Source: Syntrophaceae bacterium
GTDB lineage: Bacteria; Desulfobacterota; Syntrophia; Syntrophales; PHBD01
Length of the DNA: 64,000 bases
Direction: 5' to 3'
NCBI GenBank assembly: GCA_013177825.1
Contig: JABLXX010000003.1
Span: 124,001-188,000 of the forward strand
A program made the position numbers and the translations under genes. Each line of letters opens with the position of its first letter. Position 1 is the stretch's first letter. Under the pieces are notes generated by a model, which did not search any database, had not been told where the DNA came from, and saw only the letters and a list, made by a program, of their open reading frames with translations. Positions 40,709 through 41,813 of the stretch are shown here, one piece after another.

Positions 40709-40742
40709 CCCGTTTTCTCCCAATAGGAAAAAGGAGGGTGCC

Positions 40743-41216
40743 ATGACGCCGGACGAAATGAAGGACAGGGCAATCCAGATTATGTTGAAGAGGTTCCATT
40801 GAAGCCAGGCGGTTCTTGCGGTTGCGCAGGAAAAACTGGGGCAGGAAGCAAACGAGGGGCTGATCCGGGCCATGGGACCGTTCGGTGCGGGCCTGGCGGC
40901 TACCGGCGAGGTATGCGGGAACGTTATCGGCGCTCTCGCCGCGTTCGGCCTGATGTTCAGCCGCAGCAGGGAGGAGGAGCGGGAAAGTCCCCTGATGTGG
41001 TCGTATTCTCAGCAGTTTCAGCGACGCTTCCGGGAGGAGATCGGCCGGGGAAGCATTCTCTGCCGCGACCTGATCGGCGTGGACTGGCAGGACAAGGCCC
41101 AGGCGAAAGATTTCCATGCCGGTGAAAAGTACCGGGAGTGCCTGCGGATCACCGGTGAAACCGCGAAAATCTTGGGTGGGATGATCGAGCAGTATCTCTT
41201 GTCTCAGCGGGCTTGA
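40743..41216 (+). CDS. C_GCAxxG_C_C-family redox selenoprotein (UGA = Sec20)
   Basis: Read through the in-frame TGA at 40800-40802, this gene gives 157 residues. The ATG at 40743 is 4 bases after AAGGAGGG. The protein fits the C_GCAxxG_C_C family of small redox proteins: its four conserved Cys positions fall at residue 20 (here U, in KRFH-U-SQAVLAV), then Cys in EVCGNVIGAL, in ILCRDLIG and in YRECLRIT. The UGA thus sits exactly where the family has its first Cys. A hairpin just downstream meets the bacterial SECIS rules. Standard annotation would end the gene at 40802 or start it at 40872. Function is inferred as thiol/selenol redox chemistry; partner unknown. A simple nonsense mutation is the alternative. 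Confidence 0.8.
40803..40839 (+). promoter_or_regulatory. Candidate bacterial SECIS element
   Basis: Immediately after the UGA, an inner 8-bp stem (40813-40820 with 40825-40832, including one G-T wobble) closes a GTTG loop, and an outer 4-bp stem (40805-40808 with 40836-40839) is separated by a small internal loop. The loop starts 18 bases after the UGA, inside the 16-37 range known for bSECIS, and has the G-U in the apical loop. Confidence 0.7.
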
Positions 41217-41276
41217 GTCTTCCACCGTCCCGGTAGGAAAACGGTGCCGGACGTCTTGATTCGGGAGGGATGTAAG

Positions 41277-41813
41277 ATGAATACCATCGATCGGATGACC
41301 AGGGACGAGATCGTCGAGTTCTTGAACCGCTCCTGGATGACCCATGACGGGATGTGGTTCTACAACTGCTTCAAGGAATGCGGCATCGAGACGGCCAACC
41401 GGCTCAACAAGGCGGCGATCCGGTCCATGGCGCCCATGGAGATGGCCAGGATGAAAAAAGCCCTGGGCATCGTGGCGGAGAGGATCGAATCCTTCGCGGA
41501 ATTCAAGGATTTCTTCACGGGCGCCGCCCGCTTCTGCATCCCGCCGTTCATGAACGGGAAGTTCGATACGTCCCGTGAAAACACCCTGCACTGGGAATTT
41601 GCGCCCAAGAACTGCTTTGCCTACAAGGGGATGGTCAGAATCGGGGCCATCGACGGGTACGAGTGCGGGGTCATCTACCGGCTTGCCTGCTGGTTCGACG
41701 CCCTGGGTCTCAAGTACAGGGCAACGCCGGAAATCACGGGCTGCCGGATGCGGTCGGGGGACACCTGCGAGGGCGAATTTGTCTTCGACTTCGGCACGTT
41801 TGCCGCGTCCTGA
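41277..41813 (+). CDS. DUF6125-like protein
   Basis: This 178-residue soluble protein starts MNTIDRMTRDEIVEFLNRSW and contains WMTHDGMWFYNCFKECGIE and MAPMEMARMKKALGI, text typical of DUF6125 (L-2-amino-thiazoline-carboxylate hydrolase-like) proteins of anaerobes. The C-terminal half holds cysteines in GYECGVIYRLACWFD and GDTCEGEFVFDFG that could bind metal or act in redox. The ATG at 41277 follows GGGAGGG (41263-41269); the in-frame start at 41244 has no such site. It lies 60 bases after the selenoprotein and is probably co-transcribed; a shared substrate is a reasonable guess but unproven. Confidence 0.7.
   Translation: MNTIDRMTRDEIVEFLNRSWMTHDGMWFYNCFKECGIETANRLNKAAIRSMAPMEMARMKKALGIVAERIESFAEFKDFFTGAARFCIPPFMNGKFDTSRENTLHWEFAPKNCFAYKGMVRIGAIDGYECGVIYRLACWFDALGLKYRATPEITGCRMRSGDTCEGEFVFDFGTFAAS

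Follow-up and report, generated by a model that had tools for sequence, protein, structure and literature searches.

Selenocysteine (Sec) forms of the small and little-studied protein family PF09719, labelled 'putative redox-active protein' in Pfam, are already known: PF09719 selenoproteins have a single entry in one review (PMC9312934) and are divided into forms 1 and 2 in another (PMC13188914). Form 1 is MGD8741185.1 and form 2 is WP_012158890.1, and no redox motif is given for either form (PMC13188914, PMC9312934). For form 2 a 2008 paper is cited, in whose main text the family goes unnamed. The split-Soret cytochromes c (profile NF047622) are the other described system of relevance; PDB entry 1h21, from Desulfovibrio desulfuricans, is titled for a novel iron centre. 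The gene described here adds a well-supported Sec member to the Pfam family of forms 1 and 2, and its product shares with split-Soret cytochrome c a predicted fold and all four conserved cysteine positions. In contrast, the first of these positions is occupied by Cys, not Sec, in split-Soret cytochrome c, which is also extended at the N-terminus and carries two CxxCH haem motifs in its C-terminal part; the 157-residue product has no such motif.

A selenoprotein gene of the C-GCAxxG-C-C family

The window, a stretch of 64,000 nucleotides from a Syntrophaceae bacterium (contig JABLXX010000003.1), belongs to a genome of 4.24 Mb in 25 contigs; among the named genomes of the set searched, its closest relative is the metagenome-assembled genome (MAG) Deltaproteobacteria bacterium HGW-Deltaproteobacteria-19. 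On its forward strand, positions 40743 to 41216 almost certainly encode a C-GCAxxG-C-C family selenoprotein, judging from sequence comparison, with the UGA at codon 20 decoded as selenocysteine. Direct reading bears out the preliminary description of the frame: from the ATG at 40743 to position 41213 it is open except for a single in-frame TGA (40800-40802), which is followed by 137 sense codons and then by the true stop, TGA at 41214-41216, where the conserved frame ends and near which the orthologs end in TAA, TAG or TGA. A Shine-Dalgarno sequence, AAGGAGG (40731-40737), is located 5 nt on the 5' side of the ATG. Such a gene would be truncated by plain gene calling with table 11. Further TGA-containing genes were sought across the window, with no other convincing case.

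With Sec read at residue 20, the product scores above the curated cut-offs of both PF09719 (82.6 bits, E 3e-23, cut-off 27) and TIGR01909 (68.5 bits, E 5e-19, cut-off 47.4), the latter titled 'C-GCAxxG-C-C family (seleno)protein' by NCBIfam, and the family membership first proposed from the letters alone is thus upheld. Two other family profiles match with low E-values, yet the scores fall below their curated cut-offs, and membership in either was rejected: the DVU_1555 family C-GCAxxG-C-C protein (NF045669; 62 bits against 103) and the HUGP/GUXX-star fusion selenoprotein (NF045501; 47.5 bits against 325). The four conserved Cys positions of the family, all on invariant alignment columns, correspond to U20, C58 (40914-40916, within GEVCG), C107 (41061-41063) and C133 (41139-41141); the last three, already thought to be intact, are all present and are invariant in 17 aligned orthologs. 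The host genome has three further PF09719-family paralogs, which have no in-frame stop.

A DUF6125 (PF19620) gene is found directly on the 3' side of the selenoprotein gene and on the same strand (41274-41813). This adjacency occurs only in the host genome (G000) and its congener G001, and no conserved gene neighbourhood was seen among the relatives, so no operon partner or pathway can be named.

Alternation of selenocysteine and cysteine, and the SECIS element

The orthologous set comprises 36 copies, of which 35 are full-length and from the same order (including that of the window) and one comes from UBA2168, a MAG labelled Gammaproteobacteria. The preliminary description proposed aligning homologues to see whether residue 20 is U or C, and the orthologs have both: the codon is TGA in 26 copies and TGC in ten, and never TAA or TAG. 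In contrast, the 26 TGA copies end in mixed stops (12 TAG, eight TAA and six TGA), and random nonsense mutation would not produce a pattern in which codon 20 is only TGA or TGC. On the ortholog tree, U and C have changed places at least four times, three of the changes being forced by well-supported branches, which indicates that Sec and Cys were exchanged several times. Searches for relatives found none in viral contigs and only distant ones in plasmids.

One alternative is a pseudogene in which the TGA at 40800 arose as an ordinary nonsense mutation. Decay does occur in this group: a copy from another genus of the order (L054; G053:C201, 1501-1605) is truncated, has TGG (Trp) as codon 20, still carries a remnant of the SECIS and is a decaying copy of the gene, and in genome G097 a TGA copy on a long branch is nested inside a Cys clade, its TGA possibly having arisen recently by nonsense mutation. 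However, the TGA is common to 26 copies that share only about 50% protein identity and are spread over many families, and beyond it the frame is unbroken and shows purifying selection, which makes a pseudogene very improbable. Frameshifts or additional stops in close relatives had been named as signs of decay; the congener G001, whose protein is 92% identical to that of the window, instead has the same SECIS after a retained TGA, and its frame is open and under purifying selection, with codons 21-33 unchanged and with pN of 0.032 and pS of 0.195 over codons 34-157.

Another alternative is that the TGA at 40800 is a true stop, with translation restarting downstream, for example at the ATG at 40872, which opens a frame of 114 residues (40872-41216). 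Such a frame is present, but its product would lack helices 1 and 2 as well as the family's first Cys. The peptide of residues 1-19 is conserved (MTPxEM..A..FH), although the silent sites of its codons have diverged as much as expected, and the Shine-Dalgarno sequence belongs to the ATG at 40743. A restart is therefore about as improbable as a pseudogene, and the evidence points to readthrough of the UGA as selenocysteine.

The element following the TGA is in all probability a SECIS (40805-40839, forward strand), for which the comparison of relatives provides strong evidence. It folds at -17.8 kcal/mol, with an upper stem of seven base pairs in which TTCTTGC (40813-40819) is paired with GCAGGAA (40826-40832), an apical loop GGUUGC (40820-40825) that begins 17 nt after the TGA, and a lower helix (40805-40808 with 40836-40839). 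The consensus TTCTTGC - GGTYGS - GCARGAR, with its 7-bp stem and a loop opening with GGU, is found in 23 of the 26 TGA copies, and the intact stem in none of the ten Cys copies; these counts come from per-sequence folds and explicit pair checks. The UBA2168 and G134 copies fold in the same place into another hairpin, which has a GUG loop, and the third TGA copy that lacks the standard stem is that of G097. Silent sites are also frozen in the TGA copies only: synonymous-codon identity at codons 22 and 24-28 is 1.00, 0.99, 0.92, 0.92, 0.72 and 0.77, against an expectation of about 0.3 (0.72 for Gln22), whereas it is near expectation at the same codons of the Cys copies and at expectation in the upstream codons 2-19 of the TGA copies. 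Such constraint on the 3' side of the TGA shows that the RNA itself is under selection, chiefly in copies with TGA as codon 20. The stem-loop with bacterial SECIS spacing and loop that was noticed in the preliminary description thus stands, on the fold as well as on the restriction of stem and constraint to TGA copies.

Taken alone, the hairpin of the window is only modestly unusual, and what places it far beyond chance is the comparison with relatives. In the window, where the DNA is 60% GC, a comparable hairpin in register accompanies about 5% of all TGAs; among synonymous recodings, 21% reach the folding energy of the hairpin and 1.1% give an in-register stem of at least 7 bp. The folding-energy z-score over four stretches ranges from -0.67 to -2.75 and is weak at the longest length. 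An Rfam scan of the window returned nothing at gathering score, and an RNAalifold consensus of the TGA copies gave a short alternative helix, not the SECIS stem. The order as a whole provides a single data set of 26 Sec and ten Cys orthologous copies in which gain or loss of SECIS constraint can be measured. A pair of Cys copies (L093 and L094, in G143 and G138) in which the SECIS sequence is still recognisable, with one stem pair broken, looks like a recent change from Sec to Cys.

The Sec machinery to be expected if UGA is so decoded was suggested as a further check, and all of it is present in the host genome: selA (605.7 bits), selB (363 bits), SelD and a tRNA-Sec with anticodon tca (UCA). 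By the proposed mechanism, SelB and tRNA-Sec(UCA) would decode the UGA at codon 20, directed by the adjoining SECIS hairpin, and Sec would be inserted at residue 20. Genomes with a Sec copy and those with a Cys copy cannot be told apart by selA and selB, since nearly all of them carry both; the gaps (selA in G113 and G134, selB in G008) are all in MAGs of 77-85% completeness. The SelD of the host (L014; G000:C2:171816-172742) is itself a selenoprotein, with an in-frame TGA within GAGUACK.

Likeness to split-Soret cytochrome c

AlphaFold2, run on the ortholog alignment, predicts an almost wholly helical protein (pLDDT 96.3, pTM 0.91), and 1h21 is the sole clear match to it among solved structures, with a Foldseek probability of 1.00 and a VIA-align Z of 15.7 (rmsd 3.8 over 143 residues; 4.8 in the next row). 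A sequence-profile match to split-Soret cytochrome c was also obtained (E 0.0008); the NF047622 profile itself gives the product 19.1 bits, under its curated 400. In an alignment with the split-Soret cytochromes of the phylum, U20 corresponds to the Cys of YxCxYG, C58 to that of GTICGA, C107 to that of SVLC and C133 to that of SERC. It is thus predicted with high confidence that the product folds like the cysteine-rich domain of split-Soret cytochrome c, minus the haem-binding part.

Sec may also be present in cytochromes of the split-Soret type elsewhere in the phylum. Among 48 genomes of the phylum sample with a family match, four matches have a single internal TGA, and in three of the four the TGA coincides exactly with the domain's first Cys. 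These are L141 (G296:C8:199800-201000), in the context LEKGG-U-GAG and with a 7-bp stem and loop GGUC on the 3' side of the TGA; L142 (G283:C1:1809500-1810700), in the context LENKG-U-GNG and with a weaker hairpin; and L168 (G510:C69:51700-53100), in the context LPGGG-U-MYA and with an 8-bp stem on the 3' side. All three have a twin-arginine-like signal, and their other cysteines and CxxCH haem motifs are intact. They are candidates for Sec-containing split-Soret cytochromes, possibly undescribed, and none of the papers searched pairs 'split-Soret' with 'selenocysteine'. L167 of G426 was rejected as a case of this kind, its TGA being merely at the C-terminal end. The TGA-bearing genes of the split-Soret type lend support to the idea that in both families it is at the first Cys of the domain that selenium is of advantage.

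Function and wider distribution of in-frame stops

The product is most likely a small redox or metal-centre protein, in which Sec20 may be a ligand of an iron centre or an active residue at it. The four cysteines of the split-Soret domain are expected to bind the iron centre of 1h21, and the correspondence of fold and cysteines gives an iron-centre role for the window protein roughly an even chance; iron binding and a redox role are both putative. A serious rival is that the protein is a selenoprotein as described, with Sec or Cys serving as a metal-free thiol or selenol redox group. The annotation of PF09719 as putative redox-active is consistent with such a group, as is the statement in one review that most prokaryotic selenoproteins are thought to be involved in redox reactions (PMC9312934). 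However, there is no motif of the CxxC or CxxU type, the fold is not thioredoxin-like, and the sole close fold is that of split-Soret cytochrome c, with its title's novel iron centre and all four cysteines conserved; this rival is given slightly less than an even chance.

Beyond an iron-centre role for the one protein, it is possible, though rather unlikely, that the whole C-GCAxxG-C-C family is the free-standing form of the split-Soret iron-centre domain, with Sec replacing the same iron-ligating first Cys in both families. If true, this would amount to a widespread natural Sec-ligated iron centre, and the Sec-containing cytochromes of the split-Soret type would be an undescribed form. The link to the split-Soret iron centre, strengthened by the TGA-bearing genes of that type, provides a testable function for a family known as 'putative redox-active'.

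A phylum-wide sample of PF09719 members with a TGA (L121-L140) includes several from subfamilies other than that of the window protein; in 19 of the 20 the TGA is at this same first Cys, in the contexts GFNU, GLNU, GYNU and FHUSQ. In the PF09719 member L125 (G275:C30:14411-15170) the first Cys is kept and the in-frame TGA comes 17 residues after it (GIEHUQAMKI); this could be an additional Sec position of the family or a sign of decay. Three matches to PF09719 or the split-Soret family have an in-frame TAG instead of TGA (G372:C15:14166-14528, G369:C13:24607-24993 and G516:C79:4430-5221), which could represent pyrrolysine, decay or assembly error.
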